Shown piece by piece: positions 10,641 to 35,380 of a stretch of 64,000 bases of DNA. Location of the stretch: IMG/VR virus record IMGVR_UViG_3300028654_000010, positions 62,001 to 126,000 of that record; one strand, written 5' to 3'. How positions within the stretch are numbered: the first letter of the stretch is position 1; each line of letters begins with the position of its first letter. Source of the DNA: a virus. The notes below the pieces were generated by a model that saw only the letters and a program-made list of their open reading frames with translations, made no database searches and was not told the origin of the DNA. Both the position numbers and the translations under genes were made by a program.

Positions 10641-11558
10641 ATGAAGCTATACGTCAATCGTCAACCGCGTTCAGGCCCGTGGGGTGGGGGTAATTTGTGG
10701 GTCGCCGCATTCCACAAGCGCGCGCCCACCCTGCCCAACGTCGAGCTGCTCACCGACGAGGCGCTGAACTTCTCCCCCGATGTCTGCCTGCTGGCGGGCC
10801 TCGACAACGACGGCACCGGCATCTCCGTCGATCAGGCGGTGATGCACCAGCTGTACCAGGCCCCCAACATGAAGATCGTGCTCCGCGTCAACGAGAACGA
10901 CGCCCGCAAGGGCACCCGCCACATGGACGCGCTGCTCCTCAAGGTGGCCCCCCACGTGTCGGCCACCGTCTTCGTATCGCACTGGTTGCAGGACTACTTC
11001 AATGCCAAGGGGTGGGCCTGCAAGGAACAGGCGGTCATCGTCAACGGCTGTGCCGCCGACATCTTCGCCCCGCAGCCCAAGCTCAACAACGGCAAGCTCA
11101 ACATCGTCGCGCACCACTGGTCATCACACGAAATGAAGGGTGCCGACATCTACCAGAAGCTCGACAGGCTGGTGGGCGAGCAGCCCGACAAGTTTGCCTT
11201 CACCTACATCGGTCGTCATGAGTGTGACTTCAGGCACACCAACGTCATCAGGCCCACCTTCGGCAAGGACTTGGGTGCCGAGTTGGGCAAGCACGACGTT
11301 TACGTGTCGGCAAGTCGTTTCGATCCTGGGCCCAACCATGTGCTAGAGAGCCTATCGTGCGGCCTGCCCACCTACGTCCACAAGGACGGCGGAGGTTGCG
11401 TCGAATTTGCGGGTGCCGACCACAGTTACAAGAACTGGGACGAGCTGAAGGCGATCCTCAACGGGCCGCTGGCTCCCAACACGGCGATGACGCCTACGGG
11501 CTGGCTCCCGTGCGTGCAGCAATACGTGACGTACCTTGAACACGTACTGCAGGCCTGA
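10641..11558 (+). CDS. GT4-like glycosyltransferase
   Basis: The protein has 305 residues of GT-B type. The N-terminal lobe starts MKLYVNRQPRSGPWGGGN, with a Gly-rich loop typical of GT4. The donor lobe has LNIVAHHWSSHEMKGADIY and SRFDPGPNHVLESLSCGLP, the E-containing helix that binds the nucleotide. A short C-terminal helix crosses back. It is the first gene of the long plus-strand sugar region and has its own leaderless-type promoter. Compared with typical GT4 enzymes of 350-400 residues it is compact. Confidence 0.8.
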   Translation: MKLYVNRQPRSGPWGGGNLWVAAFHKRAPTLPNVELLTDEALNFSPDVCLLAGLDNDGTGISVDQAVMHQLYQAPNMKIVLRVNENDARKGTRHMDALLLKVAPHVSATVFVSHWLQDYFNAKGWACKEQAVIVNGCAADIFAPQPKLNNGKLNIVAHHWSSHEMKGADIYQKLDRLVGEQPDKFAFTYIGRHECDFRHTNVIRPTFGKDLGAELGKHDVYVSASRFDPGPNHVLESLSCGLPTYVHKDGGGCVEFAGADHSYKNWDELKAILNGPLAPNTAMTPTGWLPCVQQYVTYLEHVLQA

Positions 11559-11963: not shown

Positions 11964-12340
11964 CATCAAGGTTGAAGCCCCAGGAATTCCACCAGGCCAT
12001 CTCGCGCCTGTTGAGCGCCAAGTTGCAGCCGCTGATCACCGACGAGAAGAGCCTCAACTTGGTCACCTGCACCGACATCTACACCACCATCTTCGAGGCG
12101 ATGACCGACGTCATCAGGGACGCGGAACTACCCCTGTCGAACGAGGCCGCCAACTGGTTGAGCCAGACGTACTATGACGGCATCCTGATCAACGGTAACC
12201 AGGAGCTCGACCCTGACATCTTCACCATGCGCGCCGAGCTCGGGCACCTGCCCACCGAGGAGCTGACGTTGATGGCGGTGATGTTGTCTGGCACCGACTT
12301 CGCGGTGCCCCTCATCGCCGAGGTCAAGCGCCGGTCGTGA
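11960..12340 (+). CDS. Small helical protein, duplicated in tandem (copy 2)
   Basis: The protein has 126 residues, coupled by ATGA to its paralogue and by GTGA to the following glycosyltransferase. It shares the order of helices and the conserved EA-NWL and LxGT positions with copy 1, but identity is low, so the duplication is old. No catalytic motif is visible. Confidence 0.6.
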   Translation: MTSRLKPQEFHQAISRLLSAKLQPLITDEKSLNLVTCTDIYTTIFEAMTDVIRDAELPLSNEAANWLSQTYYDGILINGNQELDPDIFTMRAELGHLPTEELTLMAVMLSGTDFAVPLIAEVKRRS

Positions 12341-13278
12341 TCGTACACTTCGACAACGTCATCTTCTCATCGTCATCGGGGCCCAACACCTTCGGTGCCC
12401 GGTTGGCCCGTGCCCTGTTCGAGCAGGGTCACACCGTCGCCGACACGGGCACGGGTGCCGACGTGTCGCTGGTCTTCATCGAGCCCACGGGTGCACCGCT
12501 GGCCCGTAGGGTGGTGCAGCGCCTCGACGGCATCTGGTCGCGGCCGCAGGACTTTGCCACCAAGAACACCAGCATGCGGTTGTTGTACCAGCGTGCCGAC
12601 GCCGTTGTCTGGCAATCGACCTTCGACATGACGATGGTGCTGAAGCACTTCGGCCTGCCCGGCCACGTCTTGGGCCGCGTCATCCACAACGGCACCTCAC
12701 CGGTGCCCGTCAACGAGATCACCATTCCGAAGTTGCTCGACATGCGTGGTGCCTACGACCGCATCTACGCCTGCAGCGCCAACTGGCACGGCCAGAAGCG
12801 ATTGGCGGCCAACGTCGCCCTGTTCGACCACCTGCGCACCTTTCACCCGAATAGCTGCCTCATCGTGTTGGGCAGCAACCCCGATCACCGGGCGACGGGC
12901 CCCCACGTCTTCTATGCGGGATCCGTCGATGAGGCGACCTACCTGCAGGTGTACTCGGCCGCCGACTGGTTGTTGCACCTGGCGTGGGGCGATCACTGTC
13001 CCAATACGGTGATCGAGGCACTGTCACAGGGCACCCCCGTCGCCTGCAGCGAGGTGGGTGGCACCAAGGAACTCGTCGGTGGCTACGGCCACGTCCTCAA
13101 GGACGCACCCTTCGACTTCGAGCTCTATGACTACAACACGCCGCCGCCCATCGACGTCACCCAGGTCGCGGACCTGCCTCCCCGCCAGTCGCTCGACGCG
13201 TCGTCTATCGCTGACATTGACATCGGCCACGTCGCCTTGAAGTATGTCAAGTTGTTCGAACAAGTGTGTGGCGCGTAG
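12337..13278 (+). CDS. GT4 glycosyltransferase
   Basis: The protein has 313 residues from a GTG overlapping the previous stop. The N-terminal lobe has SSSSGPNTFGARLARALFEQ, the usual GT4 Gly-rich loop and helix. The donor lobe has IYACSANWHGQKRLAANVAL and GDHCPNTVIEALSQGTPVAC, with the conserved Glu in the VIEAL helix and GGTKEL after it. This is a confident family assignment, but the sugar is unknown. Confidence 0.85.
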   Translation: MIVHFDNVIFSSSSGPNTFGARLARALFEQGHTVADTGTGADVSLVFIEPTGAPLARRVVQRLDGIWSRPQDFATKNTSMRLLYQRADAVVWQSTFDMTMVLKHFGLPGHVLGRVIHNGTSPVPVNEITIPKLLDMRGAYDRIYACSANWHGQKRLAANVALFDHLRTFHPNSCLIVLGSNPDHRATGPHVFYAGSVDEATYLQVYSAADWLLHLAWGDHCPNTVIEALSQGTPVACSEVGGTKELVGGYGHVLKDAPFDFELYDYNTPPPIDVTQVADLPPRQSLDASSIADIDIGHVALKYVKLFEQVCGA

Positions 13279-13318: not shown

Positions 13319-13819
13319 ATGAACTCAAGAATTCTCCCCCGCATTCTCATCGCCGCAGCCGTCGTCCTCTCACCTGTCGCTGTCGGCGCGGCCCTCGTCG
13401 GTTGCACTGGCACTGTCACCCCGGTGCAGGTCGCGCAGACCGTCGAGCAGTCGGCACAGATCGCCGTGGCCGCCGCTACGTCGGCATGGAACTTCATCCT
13501 GCCCTCGCTGCCCGCGGCGAGCCAGGCCGCCGCCAATGCGAAGTTTCAGAAGTCGTTGGTCGCTGTCACTGACGGCCTCGCCACCCTCAATGACGCCGTC
13601 GTCGCCTTTCAGAATGCGACCGGGCCGGCTCCCAACTGGGGAATGTTGATCTCGACGTTGAGCGACGCTGTCGGCAACGTGCTGGCGATTGTCAACGAGT
13701 TCAAGACGGGCGCTACCGCTGCACACGGTGGCCTTGCCGCCGGTGAGCCCATCCCGGGTTATGCAGAGCTGGTGCAGTCGGCGGCGACGCTCAACAAGGC
13801 CGCTCACCCGAGCAACTGA
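13319..13819 (+). CDS. Predicted lipoprotein
   Basis: The protein has 166 residues. An N-terminal signal peptide is clear: MNSRILPRI, a hydrophobic core (LIAAAVVLSPVAVGAALV) and a lipobox with Cys29 (LVGC). The mature part is Ala/Val-rich and probably all helical. It would be anchored in a membrane of the infected cell, or in a diderm host in the inner or outer membrane. Phage lipoproteins often block superinfection or take part in lysis; nothing here decides. It has its own leaderless-type promoter and stands between glycosyltransferase genes. Confidence 0.8.
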   Translation: MNSRILPRILIAAAVVLSPVAVGAALVGCTGTVTPVQVAQTVEQSAQIAVAAATSAWNFILPSLPAASQAAANAKFQKSLVAVTDGLATLNDAVVAFQNATGPAPNWGMLISTLSDAVGNVLAIVNEFKTGATAAHGGLAAGEPIPGYAELVQSAATLNKAAHPSN

Positions 13820-13832
13820 TACCAAGCGGTCG

Positions 13833-14837
13833 ATGTCGGCAAAACTCGAACGTGCGGCGTTTGCCTTCGCGCAGAGCATCCGCACCAAGTTTGCCGACAG
13901 CGTCAAGGGGCCCAATGCTAACGCTTGGGCCACGTTGGCACCTGCACAGCAACGCATTGTATTGGCTCTGGTCGAGGATGCCGTCAGCAATGGCCATGCG
14001 CAGGCCTATCCATGGTTGAAGGAGACATATGAGGCCGACGTGGTGGCCCGTGATAGTGCGGTTGTCTTTCCTGACGCTGCACTGGAGCAAGCGGCCAACA
14101 TGGTCAACTTGGGCCACACGGGCAAGCGTGACTTTGCCGCCTTCACCATCGTCAGGAACGAACCCTTCTTTCTCGAGCTATGGTGCTCGTACTACGGCAC
14201 CGCGTTTGGGTACGACAACCTCTATGTCCTTGACAATGGCACCGATGACGACAGCGTGCTACGTGCAAAAGCCAACTTTCCGCGCATCAACGTAGTGTCG
14301 GTGCCGAGCGAGAGGGTCGCCGATTGGGCATGGTGCACTAACGTCGTCAAGTGCTTTCAACGCATCTACCTGCGAGGCCACCGTGTCGTGGTGTTTGCCG
14401 ACGCCGATGAGTATTTAGTGCCCGAGACGGGTGACAACCTACGTCAATACTGCGACATGTTCTTGGCGTCGGAGCGTGACTACGTGCGAGCCAAGGGTTG
14501 GGGTGTAGTGCACCAAGTTGACAGTGAACCTGTGTTGGAGAATACCTGTGACGTGTTACGTCACCGCCTTAAGGCGTGGAGAGCGCCACAGTACGACAAG
14601 ACGTTGATCAGCAAGGTACCACTCGATTGGGCCAAGGGTAGCCACACCATCTACGTCAACGGCAGGAAGATGGGTGATGCACCGGTTGATGAAGAGCTGG
14701 CACTAGTGCACCTGCGCGACGTGGATTTGGCAAGACGTCAACCGTGGCACCCAACATTCACTGATCACGCTGATCAATATCGAGTGGTATCCAACGTGTG
14801 GCGCAAAGCGCTCACTTCTTTTAAGGACGGAGTATAG
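13833..14837 (+). CDS. GT-A-type glycosyltransferase with an extra N-terminal domain
   Basis: The protein has 334 residues. The frame is open further upstream, but the ATG at 13833 is the first after the lipoprotein stop. Residues 1-90 form a helical region without recognised family. Residues about 95-330 resemble GT2/GT92-type enzymes: FAAFTIVRNEPFFLELWCSY, NLYVLDNGTDDDS and RVVVFADADEYLVPE, with the DAD metal motif. The stop TAG overlaps the -10-like box of the next gene. Confidence 0.75.
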   Translation: MSAKLERAAFAFAQSIRTKFADSVKGPNANAWATLAPAQQRIVLALVEDAVSNGHAQAYPWLKETYEADVVARDSAVVFPDAALEQAANMVNLGHTGKRDFAAFTIVRNEPFFLELWCSYYGTAFGYDNLYVLDNGTDDDSVLRAKANFPRINVVSVPSERVADWAWCTNVVKCFQRIYLRGHRVVVFADADEYLVPETGDNLRQYCDMFLASERDYVRAKGWGVVHQVDSEPVLENTCDVLRHRLKAWRAPQYDKTLISKVPLDWAKGSHTIYVNGRKMGDAPVDEELALVHLRDVDLARRQPWHPTFTDHADQYRVVSNVWRKALTSFKDGV

Positions 14838-14845: not shown

Positions 14846-15760
14846 ATGTCAAAGGTTTTCGTACTTGCGCCGCGGGAAGACTGGTGTGTTGACCAGTTCG
14901 TCAAGGAGTGGTACGCCGACAACGCTGACATCAGCGTTGACAATCCCACCGATGCGTCAATTGTCTGGTTGTTGGCCGACTGGTGCTCGGATCAGGTGCC
15001 GCTCCACCTGCTGTCGTCACGCAAGGTACTGGTCACCTGCCACCACTTCGTGCCCGAGAAGTTCGATGAGGCCGCTTTCCGTGCCCGCGATCGTTTCGTC
15101 GATGCCTACCACGTCTACAACTTGAGAACGAATGGCTTCATCCGCCCGTTTACAGGAAAGCCCATCTACCAATTGCCCTATTGGGCCAATCAGCACACTT
15201 GGCACCGCACCGGCGAGGTCAGGCCCCTTGCCAAGCCCTCCATTGACCTCAGGAAAAAACACGGGTTGCCCGAGGCGGGGTACTTGGTAGGCAATTTTCA
15301 GCGTGATACCGAAGGCCACGACCTCAAGACACCCAAGTGGGAAAAAGGTCCGGACAGGTTTGCTGACTTCGTCGAGCACCGGCTCAACACCACCCGGTTG
15401 CCCCTCCACGTCGTCTTGGCGGGTTGGCGGCGCCAGTACGTCATCAACCGCCTTGAACACGCGGGAGTGCCCTACACCTACTTCGAGCGGCCGCCACAGG
15501 CCACCATCAATGAACTCTACCAGACACTCGACCTCTATGCCGTCACTGCGCGGCAAGAAGGTGGGCCTCAAGCACTGATTGAATGTGGCCTGACGGGCAC
15601 TCCTGTCGTCAGCACACCGGTCGGCATCGCCGAGCAGGTATTGCCTGCATCGGCCATCAACGCTGACGTGTCGTTGGCCACCCCTGCCATCCCCAACGTT
15701 GAAACATGGAAATTGCCAGAAGGTTTTAAACCCTACCGCGACCTGCTGGCGAGCCTGTAA
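14846..15760 (+). CDS. GT4 glycosyltransferase
   Basis: The protein has 304 residues. Visible features are an N-terminal lobe with IVWLLADWC and KVLVTCHHFVPEKFD, a linker, and a donor lobe with YLVGNFQRDTEG, VVLAGWRRQYV and ARQEGGPQALIECGLTGTPV, whose Glu-containing helix (ALIECGL) is the GT4 signature. The next gene starts within its stop codon (TAATG). Confidence 0.85.
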   Translation: MSKVFVLAPREDWCVDQFVKEWYADNADISVDNPTDASIVWLLADWCSDQVPLHLLSSRKVLVTCHHFVPEKFDEAAFRARDRFVDAYHVYNLRTNGFIRPFTGKPIYQLPYWANQHTWHRTGEVRPLAKPSIDLRKKHGLPEAGYLVGNFQRDTEGHDLKTPKWEKGPDRFADFVEHRLNTTRLPLHVVLAGWRRQYVINRLEHAGVPYTYFERPPQATINELYQTLDLYAVTARQEGGPQALIECGLTGTPVVSTPVGIAEQVLPASAINADVSLATPAIPNVETWKLPEGFKPYRDLLASL

Positions 15761-16581
15761 TGGGCACCGTCGCATGCCTATTGGTGACGTGTTGCCTTGA
15801 ACCTGCCCGCGCTGACATCCTTAGACAGGTCGTCGCTAACCTACAGGAACAGGCACCTGAACTACGCGAACGGCTAGCCGTCTTTGACAATGCGTCGACG
15901 GTGCCGGGTGTCAGTGAACTGCTCCGCGCCAACTTTGACCACGTGTTCTACTCCAACCGCAACGTGGGTTATTGGAGCGCGATCGACTGGTGGCTCGACC
16001 AATTGCAGGGTACTCCACCCGACTACACCTACATCATCGAGAGCGACATGGTACACTATGCTTTCCCGCGAGTGCACGATGCCGTCGCACTGCTCGACCA
16101 CCACCCGGACCTGGGTGCAGTGCGGTTGCACGAGTATTCCGTCGCCAACATGCACCTGTACGACAAGGATCACCCGCGGCCTGACTCGCGGTCGGCGCTG
16201 TGGCAATCCCACACCAACAAGGTGACGGGACGCGGCGTCGTCCACGATCACCTCGATGCCAGCTTCTGGCGCACCAATTTCCTAACGCAGTTGCCCGCCC
16301 TCAACCGCTACCCGGCAATGTTGGAGGCCTTCGCCGAGCTACGCAAGCGTCCACAGTTCACCGAGCTCGACTTTCAGCGCCTGTACCACGACCAGCACCC
16401 GTACCCGTACATCGCCCTGCTCGACGGGGGCATCTTCAACTGTCCCCTCAATCCGTACGGCTCGGGCACTCCGACGGGCTCATGGTCGTCACCCGATGAG
16501 TTGAAGCGGTTGGGTTACCAATCGACGCGCTATGCATCCATCACGCCACGCAGCGAGTACACTGTCAATCGAGTGAAGTAG
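15760..16581 (+). CDS. GT2-like glycosyltransferase
   Basis: The protein has 273 residues. It starts ACLLVTCCLEPARADILRQV and carries RLAVFDNASTVPG and NRNVGYWSAIDWWL, typical of the N-terminal nucleotide-binding half of GT2 enzymes. The acidic site is probably YIIESDMV in place of a standard DxD. The stop TAG overlaps the -10-like box for the PseB-like gene. Confidence 0.7.
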   Translation: MGTVACLLVTCCLEPARADILRQVVANLQEQAPELRERLAVFDNASTVPGVSELLRANFDHVFYSNRNVGYWSAIDWWLDQLQGTPPDYTYIIESDMVHYAFPRVHDAVALLDHHPDLGAVRLHEYSVANMHLYDKDHPRPDSRSALWQSHTNKVTGRGVVHDHLDASFWRTNFLTQLPALNRYPAMLEAFAELRKRPQFTELDFQRLYHDQHPYPYIALLDGGIFNCPLNPYGSGTPTGSWSSPDELKRLGYQSTRYASITPRSEYTVNRVK

Positions 16582-16590: not shown

Positions 16591-17616
16591 ATGTCAAGGA
16601 TCCTGATCTTCGGCGGCACGGGATCGCTGGGTCGTAAGTTGATTGAGCGGTGGTCGCCTGAGCGCTTTGTCTACGTCTATTCTCGTGACGAAGCGAAGCA
16701 CTGGGCTTTGCGCAACGAATTTCACGGTTGCACCAACATCAACCAACCGCGGTTCTTGGTCGGTGACATCCGCGATGCCGCTCGTGTCCGCGAGGTCATC
16801 GATCAGGTCGAGCCCACCACCATCATCATTGCCGCTGCACTCAAGCAAGTCGACACCTGTGAGTTGAGCCCGAACGAGAGCGTCGCCACCAACTTGACGG
16901 GCACGCAGCACGTTGTCCGCGCCGTCCGCGACCACAACCTGATCCGACCCAACATCGAAAACGTGCTGTTCGTCAGCACCGACAAGGCCTGTTCACCCGT
17001 CAACGTCTACGGCATGTGCAAGGCGACGTCGGAACGCTTGATCACCAGTCAGGCCGCACAGTCGCCTGGGCCCGCGTTCATGTGCACCCGCTACGGCAAC
17101 GTGTTGGAGTCGCGGGGTAGCATCATCCCGCTGTTCAAGTACCAGGCCGAACACGCCCCCGCGTTGACGATCACCGACCCCGACATGACGCGGTACCTGA
17201 TGACGCTAGACCAGAGCGTGGACCTCATTGAGGCGGCGCTAGCCATGGGTAAGAGCGGCGACACGTGGATCCCACGGCTCCCCGCAATGCGGATCGGCGA
17301 CCTCGCCGACCTCTTTGCCTCCCGCTACAACAAGCCCATCAAGGTCATCGGCCTGCGCCCGGGCGAGAAGCTGCACGAGGACTTGGTCAACGAATCGGAG
17401 TCGGTCAGGACGCGACCCATCCGCCAGACACACTACGTCATTGGACCCGCCCACGTGCCTGCCGGCGGCACTCGCTTCACCTACAGTAGCAACGACGCGG
17501 TACTGACAAAGGCACAGCTCGAGGCCAAGCTCGACGAGCTGGGCATCTTCAGCATGCCGCTCGACAGCTTCAAGGGTCCCAACGTCGAGGAGATCATGAC
17601 CAAGAGGGGCACGTGA
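16591..17616 (+). CDS. PseB-like UDP-GlcNAc 4,6-dehydratase (SDR family)
   Basis: The protein has 341 residues and no membrane segments, like the soluble PseB/FlaA1 enzymes. The NAD loop GGTGSLG is at 8-14. The catalytic set lies at VSTDKACSPVNVYGMCK, with Asp131, Lys132, Tyr140 and Lys144, almost the same numbering as known PseB (Asp132, Lys133, Tyr141). A later GLRPGEKLHEDLV is the typical C-terminal motif of this group. The family converts UDP-GlcNAc to a 4-keto-6-deoxy sugar, often with C5 inversion. Together with the next two genes it forms a PseB-PseC-PseH order. The exact product is inferred. Confidence 0.85.
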   Translation: MSRILIFGGTGSLGRKLIERWSPERFVYVYSRDEAKHWALRNEFHGCTNINQPRFLVGDIRDAARVREVIDQVEPTTIIIAAALKQVDTCELSPNESVATNLTGTQHVVRAVRDHNLIRPNIENVLFVSTDKACSPVNVYGMCKATSERLITSQAAQSPGPAFMCTRYGNVLESRGSIIPLFKYQAEHAPALTITDPDMTRYLMTLDQSVDLIEAALAMGKSGDTWIPRLPAMRIGDLADLFASRYNKPIKVIGLRPGEKLHEDLVNESESVRTRPIRQTHYVIGPAHVPAGGTRFTYSSNDAVLTKAQLEAKLDELGIFSMPLDSFKGPNVEEIMTKRGT

Positions 17617-18827
17617 AGGATTACCCGCTGTTCAAAGTGCACGTACCCGCCGCTAGCGCGCTGGCCGAGATTGCGACGGTCTTCGCGTCGGGCTACATCA
17701 ATGAGGGTGCGCAGGTGACGCAGTTGACGCAGGCCCTGTCAAGACGATGGGACACGGATTTGGTTATTAACAACTCCCCAAGAAAAACTCTTGGGAGATT
17801 GTGTGTAACAAACAGCTGCACCAGCGCCCTCACCATGGCCTTAAAGTTGGCGGGAGTGGGCCCAGGCGACGAGGTGATCAGCACCCCGATGACATGTGTG
17901 GCGACCAACACCCCCATCATCAACCTGGGTGCCAACATCGTTTGGGCAGACATTGATCCCAACACCGGTATGATCGACCCGTGTTCCGTCAAGCAGAAAA
18001 TCACCAGTAAGACGAAGGCCATCATGGCCGTCGCCTGGGGTGGTTCGCCGCCTAACCTCAGTGAGTTGTATTATCGTATTCCAAGTGATCCGCCGGATCA
18101 GTCAATTAAACTCATTCTTGATGCCGCCCATGCTTTTGATGCCAAATACCACGACATGCCCATATGGGCCTGGGCTGATTTCACCTGTTATAGCTTTCAA
18201 GCCATCAAGCACTTCACCACAGGCGACGGCGGCGCGCTAGTTTGTAGTTGGAGTGAGGATCATGCACGTTTACATGCAAATACTGACTTTTGCCGCGCCA
18301 AAGCGATGAAGTGGTTCGGTCTTGACCGCGACGTGACCAAGGATGAGAATGGTAATTGGAGGGGTCAACAGTGGGATGCCGACATCGTCGAGGCGGGATA
18401 CAAGTTCAACATGAACAACGTCGCCGCCGCGATTGGTTTGTCACAGCTACCTCACATCGATCGCCTCGTCGCCGCACACCGGGCCAACGCGGGACTGTAC
18501 GACAGCCTGTTCAGCGACTTCACACTCGTCAGGCCCACACTAAAATACGACGGTGCAATAACCAGCGCTTGGGTCTACACGGTGTTGGTCGCTCCCGAGG
18601 CTAAATTGTCACGTGATGAGCTGTTGGCTGCCCTCAATGCCGAGGGCATTCACGCCGGTGTCGTCCACGTACCCAATGACACCTACACCTGCTTCGCGCC
18701 GTTTAAGGCCGAGCTACCAGGCGTTCGCCAGTTTAGCGCGCGCCAGTTGTCACTGCCTGTTGGTTGGTGGCTCGACGGCGACGATGTTCGTCACATCGCC
18801 CAACGTGTCAAGGAGCTGACGACATGA
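17613..18827 (+). CDS. PseC-like sugar aminotransferase (DegT/DnrJ/EryC1/StrS family)
   Basis: The protein has 404 residues from a GTG overlapping the previous stop. PLP-enzyme landmarks are TNSCTSALTMAL (68-79), DEVISTPMTCVATNTPI, ILDAAHAF (Asp170, His173) and SFQAIKHFTTGDGG with the PLP-binding Lys199. The family transfers an amino group to the 4-keto sugar made by the upstream enzyme. An extra segment around residues 51-64 (VINNSPRKTLGRLC) is AT-richer than its surroundings and carries a DNA hairpin. Bases about 18060-18350 also have AT-richer codons than the neighbours. Confidence 0.85.
   Translation: MKDYPLFKVHVPAASALAEIATVFASGYINEGAQVTQLTQALSRRWDTDLVINNSPRKTLGRLCVTNSCTSALTMALKLAGVGPGDEVISTPMTCVATNTPIINLGANIVWADIDPNTGMIDPCSVKQKITSKTKAIMAVAWGGSPPNLSELYYRIPSDPPDQSIKLILDAAHAFDAKYHDMPIWAWADFTCYSFQAIKHFTTGDGGALVCSWSEDHARLHANTDFCRAKAMKWFGLDRDVTKDENGNWRGQQWDADIVEAGYKFNMNNVAAAIGLSQLPHIDRLVAAHRANAGLYDSLFSDFTLVRPTLKYDGAITSAWVYTVLVAPEAKLSRDELLAALNAEGIHAGVVHVPNDTYTCFAPFKAELPGVRQFSARQLSLPVGWWLDGDDVRHIAQRVKELTT
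17774..17797. other. Hairpin inside the aminotransferase gene
   Basis: CTCCCCAAGA (17774-17783) can pair with TCTTGGGAG (17789-17797) with one bulged C and a loop of AAAAC. It lies in the apparent insertion of the aminotransferase and could be the trace of a small inserted element or simply a coding coincidence. Confidence 0.35.
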
Positions 18828-19348
18828 AGGTTCAAGTTCCTGATTACATGCAGCTCCGCCCGATCGTCGACGGTGACCATGAATGGCTCATCGAGCTACA
18901 CAATGATCCTGCGGTCCTGCGCAACGTCACCCACCCGCGGCCCATCACCGCGGCACAACACTACCTTTGGTGGGAGGGAATCCGCAACAATTCATCGCAA
19001 TTGCGAATGATCTTCGAGGTAGGTGGCACCAAGGTGGGCCTCGCCAAGTTCTACGACGTTGACACCGACAACCGCTGTTGCGTGTTGGGCGGCGACATCC
19101 ACACCTCTCGCCGAGGTAGCGGCTATGCCAAATTCATGTGGACGCGGATGCTCGATAAGTGCTTCGACGAGCTGCAATTGCACCGGGTGGGCCTGTCGAC
19201 GGCCGAATTCAACACCATCGCCCGTCACATCTACCAGGGCCTGGGCTTCAAGGAAGAGGGCCGCCTGACGCAGGGCCTCTACCGCGACGGGCAGTACCAC
19301 GACCACGTGTTGATGTATATGCTCAACAGCGATTGGCGCGCGAGATGA
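18824..19348 (+). CDS. PseH-like GNAT N-acetyltransferase
   Basis: The protein has 174 residues, starting at an ATG overlapping the aminotransferase stop. The GNAT fold is visible: LRPIVDGDHEWLIELHNDP, GLAKFYDVDTDNRCCVLGG, the acetyl-CoA loop region RRGSGYAKFMWTRML (about 95-109) and the terminal YQGLGFKEEGRLTQ. The order after PseB- and PseC-like genes fits acetylation of the new amino group. VioB- or PglD-type enzymes are of another fold, so PseH is the best comparison. Confidence 0.8.
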   Translation: MKVQVPDYMQLRPIVDGDHEWLIELHNDPAVLRNVTHPRPITAAQHYLWWEGIRNNSSQLRMIFEVGGTKVGLAKFYDVDTDNRCCVLGGDIHTSRRGSGYAKFMWTRMLDKCFDELQLHRVGLSTAEFNTIARHIYQGLGFKEEGRLTQGLYRDGQYHDHVLMYMLNSDWRAR

Positions 19349-20073
19349 TGCAGCTCCCCCGCATCTTCGTCGGCACCATGTACGTCAAGGAGGGCGATTT
19401 TCAGGCCTGCGTCGCTCGCATTCAGGAACAGGAAGGCGTCGTCGTCACCCACCTGATCCGCGCCGACATGGCCGAGAAGGAGGCCCACAACGCGCTGTGG
19501 CACGGTTGGCGCGAAGCGCGTGACAACCACGACCTCTTCGTTAAGGTCGATGCCGACACTGTCCTCATCTCCAATCACACGCTGGCCAACATCTACGCGC
19601 TGTTCGCCACCAACCCCCGCGTCACCGGCCTGCAGGCGCCGCTCCACGACTACATGACCGACGGCCTCATCAACGGCCTCAATGCCTTCAGTCCCCGCGT
19701 TACCTTCAATGACACTCGTGACGAGTTGTACTGCGATCGCCAAGTCGACACGGGCCACGACGTGCTGCTACGCGGTGCCGAGCTCCCCGCATCGCTGTCG
19801 CCGGCAGGCCTCCACTGCTACCACGCGACTGACAAGCAGGCCTTTCACTTCGGCCTGCACCGGGCATTGAAGGGCCAGCACGACACCATCGCCAAGGTGA
19901 AGCAGGCCCACCAGCGGTACCACGACCGCACTAGGGCCTTCGCGTTGTTGGGGGCCAAGGCGGCACCCGATTTTGCACAGCACCGCAGGTTCAACTATGG
20001 CGACGCCGAGTTTCAGGTGGCGTTCGGCGAGGCGACGGCGAAGTACGAGCAGCACATGAGGAGCCTGGCATGA
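19345..20073 (+). CDS. GT-A-like glycosyltransferase
   Basis: The protein has 242 residues. Two adjacent ATGs (19345, 19348) are possible; the first overlaps the previous stop. It starts RIFVGTMYVKEGDFQACVAR and carries LFVKVDADTVLI with the DAD metal motif at about residues 71-73. The C-terminal half is rich in His and Arg. It probably adds the sugar made by the preceding three enzymes or another residue of the glycan. Confidence 0.7.
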   Translation: MMQLPRIFVGTMYVKEGDFQACVARIQEQEGVVVTHLIRADMAEKEAHNALWHGWREARDNHDLFVKVDADTVLISNHTLANIYALFATNPRVTGLQAPLHDYMTDGLINGLNAFSPRVTFNDTRDELYCDRQVDTGHDVLLRGAELPASLSPAGLHCYHATDKQAFHFGLHRALKGQHDTIAKVKQAHQRYHDRTRAFALLGAKAAPDFAQHRRFNYGDAEFQVAFGEATAKYEQHMRSLA

Positions 20074-20099
20074 GGTGTGTCATCGCTGCGTCGAAGGGG

Positions 20100-20105
20100 T
20101 AAGAT
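20100..20105 (+). promoter_or_regulatory. -10-like box, leaderless type
   Basis: TAAGAT is followed by six bases and the ATG at 20112. Confidence 0.5.
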
Positions 20106-20111
20106 TACGCA

Positions 20112-20807
20112 ATGGGCCGTCTGTCAACACCCAACACTCCGTTTGACCGCACCATCAATCGCTATCGAGAGATCCTCGATCTCGCCTTGTACGAAGGCTA
20201 TACCTTCATGACGGTGCAAGAATTCCTAAGTGCCGGGTGTCCCACCAAACAGGTGTTGATACTCCGCCATGATCTCGACTTCAAGCCCAAGACATTGTGG
20301 CCCATCCTCGATGCTGAACGTGCCGCCGGCGCTCGGTCGACGATCTACGTCCGGGTGACGGCCAACGAGTATAACCCATTGAGCTACCATGTGCTGCCTC
20401 ACCTGCTGCATGCCCAACGCGACGGCTTTGAGGTGGGTCTACACACCAGCTGTGTTGAGTTCGCGGCGATCAATGACCTCAATCCCCTCGATGTCATTCA
20501 ACGGGAGACCAACGTACTGCGCCAATTCTTCAACGTCACCGGCGTCGCTCCACACCGCGACTGGAACTACACTCATAATTCACTGCCATGGCTACGTGAC
20601 AATTGGGCCACGATCAGCGGCACCTGTGGCTTGACCTATGAGGCCTACGCCCCGGTGCTAGAAGCTAGTACCGTCTACGTCAATGATACTTTTGCCCCTC
20701 ACCTGTGTTGGAAGACGACGCCCTACGACGCGCTGGCCACCGGCAACAGCGTTTACTTCTCAACCCATGCGGCATGGTGGTACGTCGATCACCCGTTTGA
20801 GGAATGA
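20112..20807 (+). CDS. Polysaccharide deacetylase-like (NodB-fold) protein
   Basis: The protein has 231 residues. It shows VLILRHDLDFKPKTL (about 49-63), a form of the NodB metal motif, YVRVTANEYNPL, and GFEVGLHTSCVEF (about 108-120), a His-containing second motif. APHRDWNYTH is the likely third motif. Such proteins in sugar clusters remove acetyl groups or act as uncharacterised carbohydrate esterase-like enzymes. Its stop overlaps the formyltransferase-like gene (ATGACGATG). Confidence 0.7.
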   Translation: MGRLSTPNTPFDRTINRYREILDLALYEGYTFMTVQEFLSAGCPTKQVLILRHDLDFKPKTLWPILDAERAAGARSTIYVRVTANEYNPLSYHVLPHLLHAQRDGFEVGLHTSCVEFAAINDLNPLDVIQRETNVLRQFFNVTGVAPHRDWNYTHNSLPWLRDNWATISGTCGLTYEAYAPVLEASTVYVNDTFAPHLCWKTTPYDALATGNSVYFSTHAAWWYVDHPFEE

Positions 20808-21460
20808 CGATGAAACTGTTGTTCGCCGGATACAGGAGTTGGGCCCATGCAGCCTACACCGAACTGCAACGTTTGCGAGGGGTTGACATCGAGCTGGTGG
20901 AATCTCCGAAGGCCCTCGACGCTGCTCTACGTGAAGAGGCGTGGGACGTCGTCGCCCTAGTGGGTTGGAGCTGGATCGTACCTGCCCAACACACCGTCGA
21001 CCACTACGTCGTCGTAGTACACCCGTCCGACCTACCTGCTTACGCTGGTGGCTCACCGCTGCAACACCAAATCATCGACGGGGTGACCGAGACCCAAGCC
21101 ACACTGTTTCGGGCGGCGACGCAGCTCGACGGGGGAGCCGTGTTGTACAAGTGTCCATTGTCGTTGGAGGGTCACCTCGACGACGTGTTCGCTCGGTTGA
21201 CGTATGTGACGTGTGATCTGCTGGGCCAACTGATCCGTGACTGGCCCACCGTTGCAGAACACCCTCAGGTGGGCTACGTAGCTCCCAGAAAACGCTTGCA
21301 ACCCAAGGACGGGGAACTTACCCATGACCGCCTGCAGCATCTTACGTGCCAACAGCTCTACGACTTCATCAGGTGCCGTGAGCACCCCTACCCCAGCGCC
21401 TTTATCAAGGATGAGACGGGTACCCTCTACATCGAGCGCGTGAGGTTCAAACGTGGTTGA
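20804..21460 (+). CDS. Formyltransferase-like protein (sugar N-formyltransferase candidate)
   Basis: The protein has 218 residues. The segment VVVHPSDLPAYAGGSPLQHQI (about 70-90) followed by ETQATLFRAATQLDGGAVL is the core of the formyl-THF-dependent formyltransferase family (HPS-LP-Y-G-SP, D-G). The first 60 residues form a small Rossmann-like start. In sugar clusters such enzymes formylate amino sugars made by a dehydratase and an aminotransferase, both of which lie just upstream. It lacks the C-terminal tRNA-binding domain of methionyl-tRNA formyltransferase, which supports a sugar substrate. Confidence 0.75.
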   Translation: MTMKLLFAGYRSWAHAAYTELQRLRGVDIELVESPKALDAALREEAWDVVALVGWSWIVPAQHTVDHYVVVVHPSDLPAYAGGSPLQHQIIDGVTETQATLFRAATQLDGGAVLYKCPLSLEGHLDDVFARLTYVTCDLLGQLIRDWPTVAEHPQVGYVAPRKRLQPKDGELTHDRLQHLTCQQLYDFIRCREHPYPSAFIKDETGTLYIERVRFKRG

Positions 21461-22391
21461 GCTGTACGACATCGTTGACAACCTCGACTACGTAGCGACC
21501 AACTGTTACCAACACCAGTTGACGGAGGTGCTCGACGCGTCGTTCAATGTCAAGCGCTTGACGCTCGCCGAGCTCGAACGTGGTGATATTCCCATCGGCT
21601 CCGCCGTCATCAGTCGTTTGAGGTTGAGGACGTTGGTCAACAACTTACAAACGGTCTCGTCTGCTCTACGGGGCACGCGCTCGTTCATCTACGAACAAGA
21701 CACTTGGGAGAACTTCCTGGTCGACTCGCCGTACTTCGGCTCCTACGCCAAGATCAACGCGTGCCTATCACCCCTGACGTTTCTCAACATGTCACACTGG
21801 TGGGCGGCTCTGGTACGGTCAGCGGGCATCCCATCGCGGTTCATTCAGGTGTGGACGCTGCCCAAGTATTGCACGCCGCCGGCACCTTGGTCACAGCGTG
21901 CGCACAAAGCGATCTTTTGCGGTACCCTGTACCCCCGTCGCGTGACCTTCTTTGATGCATTGAAACAGCGCGGCATCAACGTTGAAGTAGTGCCCGTGCA
22001 ACCGACGTTCGCGCGCTACTTGGAGCTACTATCATCGTCGCGGCTGGTCATTAGGTGTGATAAGATCGATTGGCTCATCGACGCGGGCCATGGTCAATGC
22101 CGGGTCACCGACTACAACGCACTGTGGCAACGCGACATTGAAGTCGCCGCGCGCGGGTGTTTTTCAATGCGCGAGGCCGACGACGAGGGGTCCCTGTGGG
22201 GCATCGGCAGGATTCCGTTGATCGTACCTTTCACTACCGTTGATAGTGCTGTCGCATCAATTAACCGGATTGCGTCACTGAGCTGCACCGAAGCCGATGA
22301 TATTGCACATACGTCTGTCGATGTGATACGGTCTGCTGAGGGTTGGATGTCAGTGCCACGAGTGATCCACGAAGTCTTGGGTGCCACGTGA
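21453..22391 (+). CDS. GT-B-like glycosyltransferase candidate
   Basis: The protein has 312 residues from a GTG overlapping the previous gene. Support is moderate: SFIYEQDTWENFLVDSPYFGSY, IFCGTLYPRRVTFFDALKQRG (start of a donor lobe), RLVIRCDKIDWLIDAGHGQ and a later EVAARGCFSMREADDEGS, which resembles the acceptor of CgeB- or GT-B-like proteins. No DxD is seen. It is coupled to the RmlD-like gene. Confidence 0.6.
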   Translation: MVELYDIVDNLDYVATNCYQHQLTEVLDASFNVKRLTLAELERGDIPIGSAVISRLRLRTLVNNLQTVSSALRGTRSFIYEQDTWENFLVDSPYFGSYAKINACLSPLTFLNMSHWWAALVRSAGIPSRFIQVWTLPKYCTPPAPWSQRAHKAIFCGTLYPRRVTFFDALKQRGINVEVVPVQPTFARYLELLSSSRLVIRCDKIDWLIDAGHGQCRVTDYNALWQRDIEVAARGCFSMREADDEGSLWGIGRIPLIVPFTTVDSAVASINRIASLSCTEADDIAHTSVDVIRSAEGWMSVPRVIHEVLGAT

Positions 22392-23191
22392 CGATCCGGG
22401 TCATCGTCCTGGGCAACACCGGCATGTTGGGCCACACCGTGGTCGAAGTATTGTCGCGCGAACTTACGCTTGAAGTGAAAGCTGTCCGACGTAGTCAACT
22501 CAACGCCCTGGAACCTACCTTGGACATGATTCATGATGTCGATTACGTCATCAACTGCATCGGCATCATCAAGCAGAACAAGTTCGCCCCTCGCCGCGAG
22601 ATGTTCATGGTCAATGCCATCTTTCCATGGTTATTGCAGGCCCAATGTACGCACGTAGGTGCCAAGTTGATCCACGTGACGTCGGACTGCGTCTTTTCGG
22701 GTCGAGTCGGAGGCTACAGCGAAAACGACACCCCTGATGCAGAAGATGATTACGGACTCTCAAAGGCGTGCGGCGAACCCCGCAATGCAATGGTCATTCG
22801 CACCAGCATCATTGGTCACGAGCTACGTGGCAAGTTGTCGTTGCTCGAGTGGGTCATGTCACAACGTGGGCAAACAATTGAGGGTTACACTAACCACGTC
22901 TGGAACGGTGTGACGACGCGGGTGTTGGCGCGAGCGTTCCGTGATATTATTGTGGGTGACCTTTACCAACCCGGCACCTTCCACGTTCATGCGCCACACG
23001 TCATCACTAAGCACGATCTGATCTGCCTCATCAATGAGGCGTGGGACTTGGGTTTGACGATTATCCCAACTATAACGCCGGTCAAGTGTGATCGATCGCT
23101 GGTCACTGTCAAATCGCTCAACGCGAAACTCAATGTTCCATCGATGGTTGAGATGATGAATGAGTTAGTAGATCTTGAACAGTCGTATTAA
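22388..23191 (+). CDS. RmlD-like NAD(P)-dependent sugar reductase (SDR family)
   Basis: The protein has 267 residues from a GTG overlapping the previous stop. The nucleotide loop is GNTGMLG (8-14), followed by DYVINCIGIIKQ, LIHVTSDCVFSG and the YGLSK catalytic Tyr/Lys pair (about 135-139). This matches the dTDP-4-dehydrorhamnose reductase type that reduces a 4-keto sugar. No RmlA/B/C homologues with dTDP specificity are identifiable nearby, so the substrate could be the UDP-keto sugar from one of the 4,6-dehydratase-like enzymes. Confidence 0.8.
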   Translation: MTIRVIVLGNTGMLGHTVVEVLSRELTLEVKAVRRSQLNALEPTLDMIHDVDYVINCIGIIKQNKFAPRREMFMVNAIFPWLLQAQCTHVGAKLIHVTSDCVFSGRVGGYSENDTPDAEDDYGLSKACGEPRNAMVIRTSIIGHELRGKLSLLEWVMSQRGQTIEGYTNHVWNGVTTRVLARAFRDIIVGDLYQPGTFHVHAPHVITKHDLICLINEAWDLGLTIIPTITPVKCDRSLVTVKSLNAKLNVPSMVEMMNELVDLEQSY

Positions 23192-23327: not shown

Positions 23328-24602
23328 ATGAAAATCGGTTGGATGGGACTGGGTAAGTTGGGTCTGCCTTGTGCTCTTGCGATGGAGCAACTTGGTCATA
23401 CGGTAATGGGCTATGATCCGGGGGAACAGACAGTCACCACCCTCAACACCCGCAAATTGCCCTATCATGAGGTAGGTGCGCAGGCGTTACTTGATAAGAC
23501 CAACATCAGATTGGTCGGTGTGAGCGACCTCATCAACGAATGCGATCTCATCTTTGTCGCGGTACAGACGCCGCATCATGCTAAGTATGAGGGCATCACC
23601 CGGTTGCCCCACAAGCGAGTTGACTTCGACTACTCCTACCTCAAGGAGGCGGTGAAACTGATCTCAAACACACTCAACACCAATCGCCTTTATGGACATA
23701 AGGCCGAGGCTAACGTCGTCATCATCTCAACCGTTCTACCTGGTACTATCGAGCGGGAAATCAGGCCACTCCTTGATCCTGGTATCAAGCTATGCTATAA
23801 TCCCGCCTTCATCGCGATGGGCACGACGATCTACGACTTCACTCACCCGGAGTTCGTCCTCTTCGGCGTCGATGACCCCAACACCGCACAGCTCGCCGAG
23901 CAGTTCTACAAGACGATCCACCAGCGGCCCTTCTACCGGACGACGATCAACAACGCCGAGATGATCAAGGTCGCCTACAACACCTTCATCAGCACCAAGC
24001 TGGCCTTCGTCAACACCCTGATGGAGGTGTGTCACAAGACGGGCTGCGACGTCGACGCCGTCACCGACGCCTTGAAACTGGCCGACGAACGCCTGATCAG
24101 TCCACGCTACATGACAGCGGGCATGGGCGACGGCGGGGGCTGCCACCCGCGCGACAACATCGCCCTGTCGTGGTTGGCCCGCAGGGTCGACATGGGCTTC
24201 GACTTCTTCGAGGCCGTCATGCTGTCGCGTGAGAAGCAGACCGATTGGTTCGCCGACCTGGTCGAGGAGGCGATCGCCGACTTCAATGCCGGGCACCTCA
24301 ATTCGGCACCCGTCTACATCATGGGCAAGGCCTTCAAGCCCGAGACAAACCTGGTGACAGGCAGCCCCTCTCGCCTGCTCCAGAGCGTATTGCGCGAGCG
24401 CGGCGTCCACGTCACCATGGTCGATCCCATCGTCGACGGTGCCGCACCCATCACCGACGCTGGCGTCTACTTCATCGGCACTCGCCACCAGGTCTTCGCC
24501 GACTGGCCCTATCCACCGGACAGCACCGTCATCGACCCACACCGCTACGTGTCCGATCGACCGGGTGTCACCGTCATCAGGTTGGGTGAGGGCCCCAAGT
24601 GA
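23328..24602 (+). CDS. Nucleotide-sugar 6-dehydrogenase (UDP-Glc/GDP-Man dehydrogenase family)
   Basis: The protein has 424 residues, normal for the family. The NAD-binding start is GWMGLGKLGLP (4-14). Further landmarks are FVAVQTPH, ISTVLPGT (about 133-140), NNAEMIKVAYNTF with Lys214, and GGGCHPRDN with the catalytic Cys272. The C-terminal UDP-binding domain is present (IMGKAFKPETNLVTGSPSR). The enzyme oxidises C6 of a UDP- or GDP-sugar to a uronic acid. A second, shorter paralogue lies at 25955. Confidence 0.88.
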   Translation: MKIGWMGLGKLGLPCALAMEQLGHTVMGYDPGEQTVTTLNTRKLPYHEVGAQALLDKTNIRLVGVSDLINECDLIFVAVQTPHHAKYEGITRLPHKRVDFDYSYLKEAVKLISNTLNTNRLYGHKAEANVVIISTVLPGTIEREIRPLLDPGIKLCYNPAFIAMGTTIYDFTHPEFVLFGVDDPNTAQLAEQFYKTIHQRPFYRTTINNAEMIKVAYNTFISTKLAFVNTLMEVCHKTGCDVDAVTDALKLADERLISPRYMTAGMGDGGGCHPRDNIALSWLARRVDMGFDFFEAVMLSREKQTDWFADLVEEAIADFNAGHLNSAPVYIMGKAFKPETNLVTGSPSRLLQSVLRERGVHVTMVDPIVDGAAPITDAGVYFIGTRHQVFADWPYPPDSTVIDPHRYVSDRPGVTVIRLGEGPK

Positions 24603-25312: not shown

Positions 25313-25947
25313 TCTACGATCAATTGTTCACCCGCGCCGACGCGTGCCGCAACCGCACCGACCTCATCGTGCTGGTCGTTGACTTCTTTGAGCACGCCAG
25401 CTACCTCGAGATCGGTTGCCGCAAGAATGAGACCTTCGACGCTGTCAAGTGTGCCCGCAAGGTCGGCGTTGACATGATCGAGGGCGGCACCCACCGGATG
25501 ACGTCGGACGCCTTCTTCGCGCAGAACACCGACAAGTTCGATGCGGTGTTCATCGACGGTGATCACCGCCACGCACAGGCGATGAGCGATGCAGTGAATG
25601 CGCTGGCGTGCTTGGCCCCCGGAGGTACCCTGATCCTCCATGACTGTAGCCCACCGACGGCACAGCACGAGAGCCTGCTCAACGTCAAGTGTGGCTCGGC
25701 ATGGCGCGTCTTCGCCGAGCTGCGCCAGCGCGGTGACCTCGACATGGTCACCGCCGATTGGGACTTTGGCTCGGGCCTGATTCGGGTGGGTGCGAACCCC
25801 GACACGATCACCACGGGCAAGTCGATGGACGACATGACGTATGCGGACTTCATCGAACACAGGGACGACTGGATGAAGCTGCGAGATCGCCAGGGCATTG
25901 GCGAATGGCTGTGGGAGCAGAAACATTGGTTGTGGAGCGGGGTATGA
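25309..25947 (+). CDS. SAM-dependent methyltransferase-like protein
   Basis: The protein has 212 residues from a GTG overlapping the previous stop. It has ASYLEIGCRKNETFDAV (SAM motif I), KFDAVFIDGDHRHAQAMSD and APGGTLILHDCSPPT, the order seen in Methyltransf_24-like enzymes. It likely methylates a sugar or an attached group; the target is not shown. Confidence 0.75.
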   Translation: MIYDQLFTRADACRNRTDLIVLVVDFFEHASYLEIGCRKNETFDAVKCARKVGVDMIEGGTHRMTSDAFFAQNTDKFDAVFIDGDHRHAQAMSDAVNALACLAPGGTLILHDCSPPTAQHESLLNVKCGSAWRVFAELRQRGDLDMVTADWDFGSGLIRVGANPDTITTGKSMDDMTYADFIEHRDDWMKLRDRQGIGEWLWEQKHWLWSGV

Positions 25948-25948
25948 T
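25943..25948 (+). promoter_or_regulatory. -10-like box, leaderless type
   Basis: TATGAT overlaps the end of the previous gene and lies six bases before the ATG at 25955. Confidence 0.5.
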
Positions 25949-25954
25949 CGTCGC

Positions 25955-26911
25955 ATGAAGAGTGCGAAGAGCGTTGCGGTAATTGGGCAAGGTTTCGTTG
26001 GGGGTTCATTGACGACTGTGTTGGCCGAACGGGGCCTCACCGCCTACGTCTACGATAAGGCGGGCAAGTTGGCCCACGGGGCAACACCAGCGCGAATCAC
26101 CCGGATGGCTGGTGATTGCAGCGCGGAAGACGTCAGGTCGGTCAACGAGCTGGTGCAGTCGTGCAGTCGCATCGACGGTTTCTCACACGTCTACTTCGTC
26201 TGCGTGCCGACGCCGATGTATGAAGATGGTAGCTGTGATACATCAATCGTCGAGGGAGCGCTGAAAGAACTAGCGGTTGCAGGTGGTGTCGACCGCATTG
26301 CTGTCATCAAGTCGACGGTGCCGCCCGGGTCGACGGAGCGGTGGAACAAGCAATTCGAGGGCACGGGCCTCCACGTGATTCACTGTCCGGAGTTTTTGAC
26401 CGAGGCCAATGCACTCAATGACATGCGTAATCAAAGTCGCATTGTCTTGGGCGGACCACGACCCTGGATCAACGACGTCAAACGGATCTTTCAGTCAACT
26501 TTCCCGAACGTGCCCATCATCAAGACATCGAGCACTACCAGCGAACTTGTCAAGTACTATACCAACATTCACTTGGCAGTGCGCGTCGTCTTGAGTTGTG
26601 AACTTGCGCAGATTTGCAATGCACTTGATAAAAGCGGGCTTGATGTTGATGTTGACAAAGTTGTTGAGTATGCAAAGTATGACAAGCGTCTGGGTAGCAC
26701 ACACATGGACACACCAGGTCATGATGGCATTCCTGGCGCACGCGGGCATTGTTTCCCGAAGGATCTGAATGCCCTCATTGCTGTCGCAAAGCAGCATGAT
26801 GTCAAGCCAATTGTCATGGAAGCGGTGTGGCGGAAAAACCTCGAAGTGATTCCTGAAGAACACCGTGATTGGGAGAAAATGGCGGGTCGAGCGGTGAGCA
26901 AGAAGCAGTGA
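25955..26911 (+). CDS. Short nucleotide-sugar 6-dehydrogenase paralogue lacking the C-terminal domain
   Basis: The protein has 318 residues. It has the NAD loop VIGQGFVGGSL (9-19), FVCVPTPMYEDGSCD, IKSTVPPGST, HCPEFLTEANA, SELVKYYTN with Lys200, and ARGHCFPKD with the catalytic Cys266. It ends about 50 residues after this Cys, so the UDP-binding C-terminal domain (about 110 residues) present in the 23328 enzyme is missing. The reading frame ends with an ordinary stop and no trace of the missing domain is seen downstream. It may be partly active, a regulatory partner, or decaying. AT-richer codons mark its second half. Confidence 0.8.
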   Translation: MKSAKSVAVIGQGFVGGSLTTVLAERGLTAYVYDKAGKLAHGATPARITRMAGDCSAEDVRSVNELVQSCSRIDGFSHVYFVCVPTPMYEDGSCDTSIVEGALKELAVAGGVDRIAVIKSTVPPGSTERWNKQFEGTGLHVIHCPEFLTEANALNDMRNQSRIVLGGPRPWINDVKRIFQSTFPNVPIIKTSSTTSELVKYYTNIHLAVRVVLSCELAQICNALDKSGLDVDVDKVVEYAKYDKRLGSTHMDTPGHDGIPGARGHCFPKDLNALIAVAKQHDVKPIVMEAVWRKNLEVIPEEHRDWEKMAGRAVSKKQ

Positions 26912-29179: not shown

Positions 29180-30124
29180 ATGAAGACTCTCCTCATCACC
29201 GGTGGATCAGGGTTCCTGGGCAGGAACCTTGCCATGGCCTTGAAGGACCATTATCACGTGGTGTTGGGCAGTCGTAACAATGCGGCTCTACGCAAGGCCG
29301 AAGGCCAGACGGGCTGCGATGCCTACCCACTCGACGTCGTCAATGTCAACTCGGTTCGTGACGTTTTCAATGAGATCAAACCTAACATCGTCATACATGC
29401 GGCGGCGACCAAGTACGTCGATTGGTCAGAACGTCATCCGTTGGAGTGCTTAGACGTCAACATCGTGGGTTCACAGAACGTCGCACGGACTGCGCTCAAC
29501 TTCGGCACCGAATTGGTCATCGGAGTGTCAACTGACAAAGCGTCGCGGCCACTCACTAGCACCTACGGCCTGTCAAAAGCGGCTATGGAACGGTTGTTTT
29601 GTGGCCTTGACACGCACCCGACGCCGACCCGTTTTGCCTGTGTACGGTACGGCAACGTGGTATGGTCGACGGGATCGGTTTTTCACGCGTGGCGAGCGAT
29701 GGGTGCCAACGTAGTGTCGACAGGTCCCAAGATGCGTCGCTTCTTCTTCACCGTTGACGATGCCGTCAACTTGGTCACTACCTGCATCGGTCACATTGAA
29801 CAACTGCGTGGAACCGTGTTGTCGCAGCCTATGAAGGCAGCGCAGGTCTGCGACGTACTCAACGTATGGACGGAACTATTCGGAGGTGCTTGGGTGCAAG
29901 GAGAATCGCGGCCAGGCGATGCTGACGATGAATGCTTGGTCAATGATGTTGAGCTGTCACGGGCCCGTGAAGTCATCTTGGACGCTCGCAAGTACTACGT
30001 CATCGGCTTGCACGTACCGCCCACCGGCTTTCCGCTGGTCCATGCCCCTTCGTCGGCCAACGCAGTGAAGTTGACACATGCCGAGATTCGCACCCTGCTC
30101 ACCGACCAACCGGCGCTACCGTGA
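29180..30124 (+). CDS. SDR-family sugar 4,6-dehydratase/epimerase-like protein
   Basis: The protein has 314 residues. The NAD loop GGSGFLGRN lies at 8-16. The catalytic region VSTDKASRPLTSTYGLSK has Asp, Lys and the Tyr-x-x-x-Lys pair, as in the PseB/FlaA1/CapD group. It is distinct from the 16591 enzyme and lacks the GLRPGEKLHE motif. It is followed by coupled nucleotidyltransferase and glycosyltransferase-like genes, so it probably belongs to a second nucleotide-sugar branch. Confidence 0.8.
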   Translation: MKTLLITGGSGFLGRNLAMALKDHYHVVLGSRNNAALRKAEGQTGCDAYPLDVVNVNSVRDVFNEIKPNIVIHAAATKYVDWSERHPLECLDVNIVGSQNVARTALNFGTELVIGVSTDKASRPLTSTYGLSKAAMERLFCGLDTHPTPTRFACVRYGNVVWSTGSVFHAWRAMGANVVSTGPKMRRFFFTVDDAVNLVTTCIGHIEQLRGTVLSQPMKAAQVCDVLNVWTELFGGAWVQGESRPGDADDECLVNDVELSRAREVILDARKYYVIGLHVPPTGFPLVHAPSSANAVKLTHAEIRTLLTDQPALP

Positions 30125-34257: not shown

Positions 34258-34258
34258 C

Positions 34259-35348: not shown

Positions 35349-35380
35349 ATCAATACCTGCACAACAGGATTAGAGTTGAG

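Follow-up and report, generated by a model that had tools for sequence, protein, structure and literature searches.

Introduction

Which sugar is made by a phage that carries the first three genes of pseudaminic acid synthesis in their usual order? The question is raised by a gene cluster in the linear IMG/VR virus record IMGVR_UViG_3300028654_000010 (141,862 bases), which derives from a large uncultured tailed phage with many glycosyltransferase genes. We analysed the 64,000-nucleotide stretch at bases 62001-126000 of the record, hereafter the window, to which coordinates below refer unless another locus is named. Here a PseB-like dehydratase, a PseC-like aminotransferase and a PseH-like GNAT N-acetyltransferase are followed by deacetylase- and formyltransferase-like genes. 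An initial annotation of the window had proposed that the pathway may stop at a uridine diphosphate (UDP)-2,4-diamino-trideoxy sugar bearing acetyl or formyl groups, a sugar type not known from phages. The probable end product of the trio, we find, is an acylated UDP-diamino sugar, used directly by the glycosyltransferases of the cluster.

Families and active-site residues of the trio

The order dehydratase, aminotransferase, acetyltransferase is borne out by gene positions and by the best NCBIfam models for the three proteins: PseB (8.8e-76, 254.9 bits; FnlA second, 179 bits), PseC (1.3e-56, 192.2 bits) and PseH (3.7e-18, 66.1 bits). Asp131, Lys132 and Tyr140 of the dehydratase, to which the initial annotation had drawn attention, align with the D-K...Y motif of Helicobacter pylori PseB (2gn4), placing in the enzyme the active-site Asp-Lys pair and Tyr of PseB and the inverting 4,6-dehydratases. 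These residues are insufficient to identify PseB proper; among solved structures Megavirus Mg534 is the closest (267 bits), and the PseB cut-off is missed. The D-K pair is common to PseB and CapE/FnlA, which are separated by the Tyr: the stretch is NAMG, with Met, in CapE and the 4j2o enzyme, and NVYG in the window's enzyme. Identity with CapE/FnlA is ruled out by this residue and by tree position.

The aminotransferase matches the DegT family in Pfam (5.4e-69) and has the pyridoxal phosphate (PLP)-lysine motif FQAIKHFTTGDGG, with K200 as the PLP lysine. The called GNAT open reading frame begins at a TTG (18764); an alternative ATG at 18824 forms an ATGA overlap with the PseC stop and is the more likely start.

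Absence of the later pseudaminic acid genes from the records searched

The initial annotation had seen no PseG, PseI or PseF and had proposed searching the rest of the genome. Across the entire 141,862-base record, profiles PF03102 (NeuB/PseI), PF02348 (CTP_transf_3, PseF) and TIGR03590 (PseG) gave zero matches. NeuB was likewise missing from all 21 related viral records that carry PseB and PseC and were searched (11 of them longer than 100 kb), and PseG from all 23 records with relatives. Among those 23, NeuB was found in a single record, that of locus L040, which served as a positive control for the NeuB search. On this viral contig NeuB, a cytidylyltransferase and a PseB-like enzyme are encoded close to one another (L040:6533-10961). 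A nonulosonate-like set is thus present on a viral contig and may represent a nonulosonate pathway of a phage.

Recurrence among viral contigs

A dehydratase search of viral contigs returned 32 loci, two of which (L011, L012) represent the window's sequence itself, recovered on two other contigs. In 25 further loci (L013-L037, including near-duplicates such as L031/L032) PseC comes after PseB without exception, either immediately or one gene further along. Seen again in 25 viral contigs besides this record, the order is not due to chance. Each of these loci also has a candidate N-acyltransferase, of GNAT type in 18, a Formyl_trans_N protein encoded directly after PseC in 3 (L027, L036, L037), and of hexapeptide type in 4 (L026, L031, L032, L033), this last assignment being based on a Pfam match in L035 and the BLAST similarity of the others to L035's protein. 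A canonical formyltransferase and a GNAT never occur together in one of the 25 loci. Glycosyltransferases on both sides of the trio are conserved among the viral loci as well.

In a phage collection of 50,697 records the dehydratase matched 6 and the aminotransferase 21, with no overlap. The description 'not known from phages' thus stands to the extent that no record of that collection has both enzymes, but the PseB-PseC pair is common in uncultured phages, and the description is further weakened by the L040 gene set and by an analogous amino-sugar cluster in an isolated Flavobacterium phage (see below).

Phylogeny and cellular relatives

The window's dehydratase falls inside an 18-row phage clade (100/99), nested in a 30-row clade (100/99) that also holds Mg534 and bacterial enzymes. 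No member of the 30-row clade was found to have NeuB within its fetched locus, some of these loci being short; by the same definition of 'near', NeuB is near the dehydratase in 11 of 16 members of the adjacent clade, mostly archaeal and candidate-phylum enzymes. This NeuB-linked clade, H. pylori PseB and CapE/FnlA all fall outside the 30-row clade.

The nearest cellular relatives (L047-L050; Alphaproteobacterial, Rokubacterial and Verrucomicrobial) share the arrangement PseB-PseC-glycosyltransferase-GNAT and further genes with the phage cluster. Two genomes with such sister operons (G023, 5.5 Mb; G026, 6.2 Mb) have no NeuB match anywhere, and other bacteria with the operon do have NeuB-type genes elsewhere. 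The operons of L048 and L050 include an ATP-binding cassette (ABC) transporter; in the phage clusters we recognised neither an ABC transporter nor a flippase.

These data bear on whether the product is simply pseudaminic acid, with the host, or a stretch of phage genome missing from the assembly, providing PseG, PseI and PseF. In favour of this, Pse loci have the same gene order, NeuB-type genes lie elsewhere in certain bacteria that carry the sister operon, and the record is linear and has no completeness estimate, so that a gene missing from it is not proven missing from the phage; the related viral records are also linear and may be incomplete. We nevertheless consider ordinary pseudaminic acid quite unlikely, given the lack of NeuB in the 21 viral records and in the two bacterial genomes, and the separation of the dehydratase clade from both H. 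pylori PseB and the NeuB-linked clade. As a first choice it was set aside when the NeuB, PseG and PseF profiles gave no match.

Deacetylase and formyltransferase homologue

The deacetylase-like gene (20112-20807) has no Pfam match, and a sequence search of the PDB gave a weak match to lactate oxidase and nothing else. Its predicted structure (predicted local distance difference test, pLDDT, 83) has a NodB-type fold resembling CE4 deacetylases, in agreement with the initial annotation: top Foldseek matches are PplD, PdaC and chitin deacetylase (E 3e-4, template modelling score ~0.5), with Bordetella WbmS further down the list. An alignment of six sequences shows conservation of RHDLD, H111, HR148-149 and H219; with respect to the canonical CE4 HxxxH metal motif, RHDLD and H111 are conserved and the second His is not seen.

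The adjoining gene (20804-21460), five genes after PseB as first described, matches Formyl_trans_N (1.1e-11). Of the N-x-H ... D triad it retains His and Asp, the Asn being replaced by Val; its orthologues are likewise without the Asn, and that of L035 also seems to have lost the catalytic Asp. The canonical formyltransferases of L027, L036 and L037 retain the Asn. When viral contigs were searched with the deacetylase or the formyltransferase homologue as single queries, little was returned besides the window's own sequence. In a 634 kb huge phage (LR745206, L044:5989-8728), genes for a PseB-like enzyme, a polysaccharide deacetylase and a formyltransferase adjoin.

Formylation of this phage's sugar, with the CE4-like enzyme stripping an acetyl group and the product of 20804-21460 adding formyl, would account for the juxtaposition of the two genes here and in L035, L036, L037 and L052, and a formyl step is suggested by the canonical enzymes directly after PseC in L027, L036 and L037. 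For the present record we regard it as rather doubtful, because the enzyme lacks the Asn of the triad, as do orthologues (L035 apparently lacking the Asp too), whereas canonical enzymes keep it; moreover, the CE4-like protein might equally be a deformylase, like ArnD. Judged from these residues, the case for formylation is better in the three relatives than in this phage, where it is uncertain. Of the proposed end point, then, the halt at a UDP-2,4-diamino-trideoxy sugar agrees with the missing NeuB in viral and bacterial relatives, and the formyl group is in doubt.

Proposed pathway and acceptor

We infer the following reactions, stereochemistry, product and acceptor. UDP-N-acetylglucosamine (UDP-GlcNAc) would be converted to a 4-keto-6-deoxy sugar by PseB/Mg534-type dehydration at C4/C6, probably with C5 epimerisation; such epimerisation, giving an L-arabino product, is suggested by homology to PseB and to Mg534, which has been described as a 4,6-dehydratase and 5-epimerase (PMC10117803) and on which the sugar configuration is modelled. 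The PseC-type aminotransferase would then add the C4 amino group, and GNAT acetylation would yield a UDP-2,4-diacetamido-2,4,6-trideoxyhexose (L-altro, by analogy with PseB/PseC/PseH). Since PseG and a NeuB-type synthase are absent, this sugar would not be converted to pseudaminic acid; instead the surrounding glycosyltransferases would transfer the UDP-2-acetamido-4-acylamido-trideoxyhexose directly.

Several observations weigh against this pathway. All three proteins score below the curated NCBIfam cut-offs (PseB TIGR03589, 407.75 bits; PseC TIGR03588, 423.5 bits; PseH TIGR03585, 93.1 bits). The search for PseF covered this record only, and absence by profile leaves room for non-homologous replacements, host enzymes and genes missing from linear records that may be incomplete. 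Finally, Mg534 serves a 4-reductase route and not an aminotransferase route, and an RmlD-like gene sits a few genes on in the phage cluster itself.

The last two points allow an alternative in which the product of the dehydratase passes to the RmlD-like reductase (22388-23191), as from Mg534 to Mg535 in Megavirus, giving a sugar of UDP-N-acetyl-L-rhamnosamine (UDP-L-RhaNAc) type, while the aminotransferase and GNAT act on another substrate. Bacteroidia enzymes encoded beside an RmlD-like gene fall in the clade of Mg534, and RmlD-like genes occur near PseB in L015, L027, L031/L032 and L033. Yet in 25/25 loci the aminotransferase adjoins PseB or lies one gene off, the RmlD-like gene is near in few, and a single intermediate could serve both products; we judge the reductase route unlikely to replace the aminotransferase route.

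For the acylated UDP-diamino sugar favoured here, the acceptor is probably cytoplasmic, virion protein being the likeliest candidate. The evidence is weak: the bacterial operons of L048 and L050 include an ABC transporter, and the phage clusters have neither that nor a flippase that we recognised. It is possible, though we would not favour it, that the sugar modifies phage DNA instead, or the host surface so as to exclude other phages. DNA and host antigens are both known targets of phage glycosyltransferases (PMC12619734), and a thymidylate-synthase-family enzyme, a group that could include base hydroxymethylases, was present in 7 of 12 records searched; against these targets, though not decisively, PF00303 has no match in this record and the phage clusters have no recognised flippase.

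Layout of the cluster and other features of the record

The seven open reading frames from the PseB-like gene to the GT-B-fold glycosyltransferase run in the same direction, with mostly overlapping ends (Table 1). Among the flanking genes, the GT4-like glycosyltransferase is 43-67% identical in relatives and 31-33% in bacterial L048/L050; the gene directly upstream of the trio is kept in phages and in the bacterial sister operons, and the one directly downstream adjoins the trio in phages and bacteria alike.

Table 1. Genes of the sugar cluster and its surroundings, in window coordinates
Feature	Coordinates	Strand	Evidence and remarks
Glycosyltransferase (GT4-like)	10641..11558	+	Pfam Glyco_trans_1_4 5.7e-4, below cut-off; homologue in bacterial sister operons
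Glycosyltransferase (group 1)	12337..13278	+	Pfam 8.7e-8; conserved in relatives
Glycosyltransferase family 2	13689..14837	+	Pfam 1.8e-9
Glycosyltransferase (group 1)	14846..15760	+	Pfam 2.2e-8; 49-61% in relatives
Probable GT-A glycosyltransferase, directly upstream of trio	15760..16581	+	GT-A inferred from sequence; no Pfam match
PseB/Mg534-like UDP-GlcNAc 4,6-dehydratase, predicted 5-epimerase	16591..17616	+	D131, K132, Y140; family matches; tree
PseC-like DegT aminotransferase	17613..18827	+	PLP lysine K200; Pfam/NCBIfam
PseH-like GNAT N-acetyltransferase	18824..19348	+	NCBIfam/Pfam; ATG start overlaps PseC stop
Probable GT-A glycosyltransferase	19345..20073	+	Function suggested by KVDADTV motif; no Pfam match
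CE4/NodB-like deacetylase	20112..20807	+	Predicted structure; conserved RHDLD, H111, HR148-149, H219
Formyltransferase homologue without Asn of N-x-H triad, activity uncertain	20804..21460	+	Formyl_trans_N
GT-B-fold glycosyltransferase	21453..22391	+	AlphaFold pLDDT 92.9; Foldseek matches SenB, Gtf3, PimA; no Pfam match
RmlD-like 4-ketosugar reductase candidate	22388..23191	+	Pfam/NCBIfam matches
UDP-glucose/GDP-mannose-type dehydrogenase	23328..24602	+	NCBIfam NDP-sugDHase, above its cut-off
Second UDP-sugar dehydrogenase	25898..26911	+	

Further glycosyltransferase-like genes lie outside the cluster (2444-4354, 35306-36670, 36667-37824, 60307-61182), which makes the phage very rich in this class. 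Another PseB-like dehydratase, divergent from the first (34%), is followed by a nucleotidyltransferase-like gene (29180-30795), and ARAGORN calls a tRNA-like gene at 34186-34258 whose anticodon has four bases (ttca).

The terminase of the record is of T4 type, with Flavobacterium immuto phages as best isolate match (~39%); those of nine large related records are 51-82% identical to it. Its large subunit gene, outside the window (L004:8970-11813, minus strand), is interrupted in frame by ~400 residues (251 to 651) at a point where relatives are contiguous; a Hint domain matches at residue 251, and the insert is probably an intein.

Comparison with known systems

The pseudaminic acid pathway of Campylobacter and Helicobacter (PseB, PseC, PseH, PseG, PseI, PseF) opens with the three steps of the phage trio, likewise ordered, with the D-K-Y residues and the PLP-lysine motif, but the phage has no PseG, PseI or PseF, its proteins fall short of the NCBIfam cut-offs and its dehydratase lies off the H. 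pylori PseB branch. The bacterial operons of L047-L050 share the core arrangement and further glycosyltransferases, with a GNAT just 31-35% identical, and the transporter of L048 and L050 sets them apart.

Two giant viruses offer viral parallels. Mg534-Mg535-Mg536 of Megavirus chilensis, for UDP-L-RhaNAc and N-acetyl-L-quinovosamine (L-QuiNAc), begin with a dehydratase of the same clade in a virus that likewise encodes its own glycosylation; there a reductase and 2-epimerase come next, and in the phage an aminotransferase and acyltransferase. Moumouvirus australiensis has a three-enzyme route to a UDP-2,4-diacetamido-trideoxy sugar, UDP-N,N'-diacetylbacillosamine (UDP-diNAcBac; dehydratase Ma467, aminotransferase Ma465, acetyltransferase Ma466), and the sugar has been detected in its fibrils (PMC10117803). 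That amoeba virus uses PglF/E/D-type enzymes, whereas the phage dehydratase is of PseB/Mg534 type.

The cluster of the isolated Flavobacterium phage immuto (MW353176), the phage with the best terminase match, includes a DegT aminotransferase (33%), glycosyltransferases, an acyltransferase and an epimerase. Its acyltransferase is a PglD-like hexapeptide protein, however, and the PseB-like enzyme had no immuto match in the phage-collection search; the immuto cluster likely makes a different amino sugar.

Implications

The enzyme families are already known, and a giant virus is reported to have a route to a 2,4-diacetamido-trideoxy sugar; what is new is a conserved, NeuB-free phage version with exchangeable acyltransferases. 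A literature search of incomplete coverage found no paper on a PseB-PseC-acyltransferase pathway in phages. Virus-encoded pathways to rare amino sugars, documented for giant amoeba viruses, can now be extended by a conserved one in large uncultured tailed phages, a testable three-enzyme path to an acylated diamino sugar. PseB, PseC and PseH matches in viral metagenomes without NeuB should accordingly not be taken as pseudaminic acid synthesis.

More tentatively, a large tailed phage lineage may retain the NeuB-free PseB-PseC core and swap its last enzyme among GNAT, formyltransferase and hexapeptide acyltransferase, so placing differently acylated diamino sugars on its particles and varying the virion much as serotypes vary. 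Since relatives differ by exchange of the acylating enzyme, the identity of the acyl group would seem to matter, for instance in recognition by hosts or defences.

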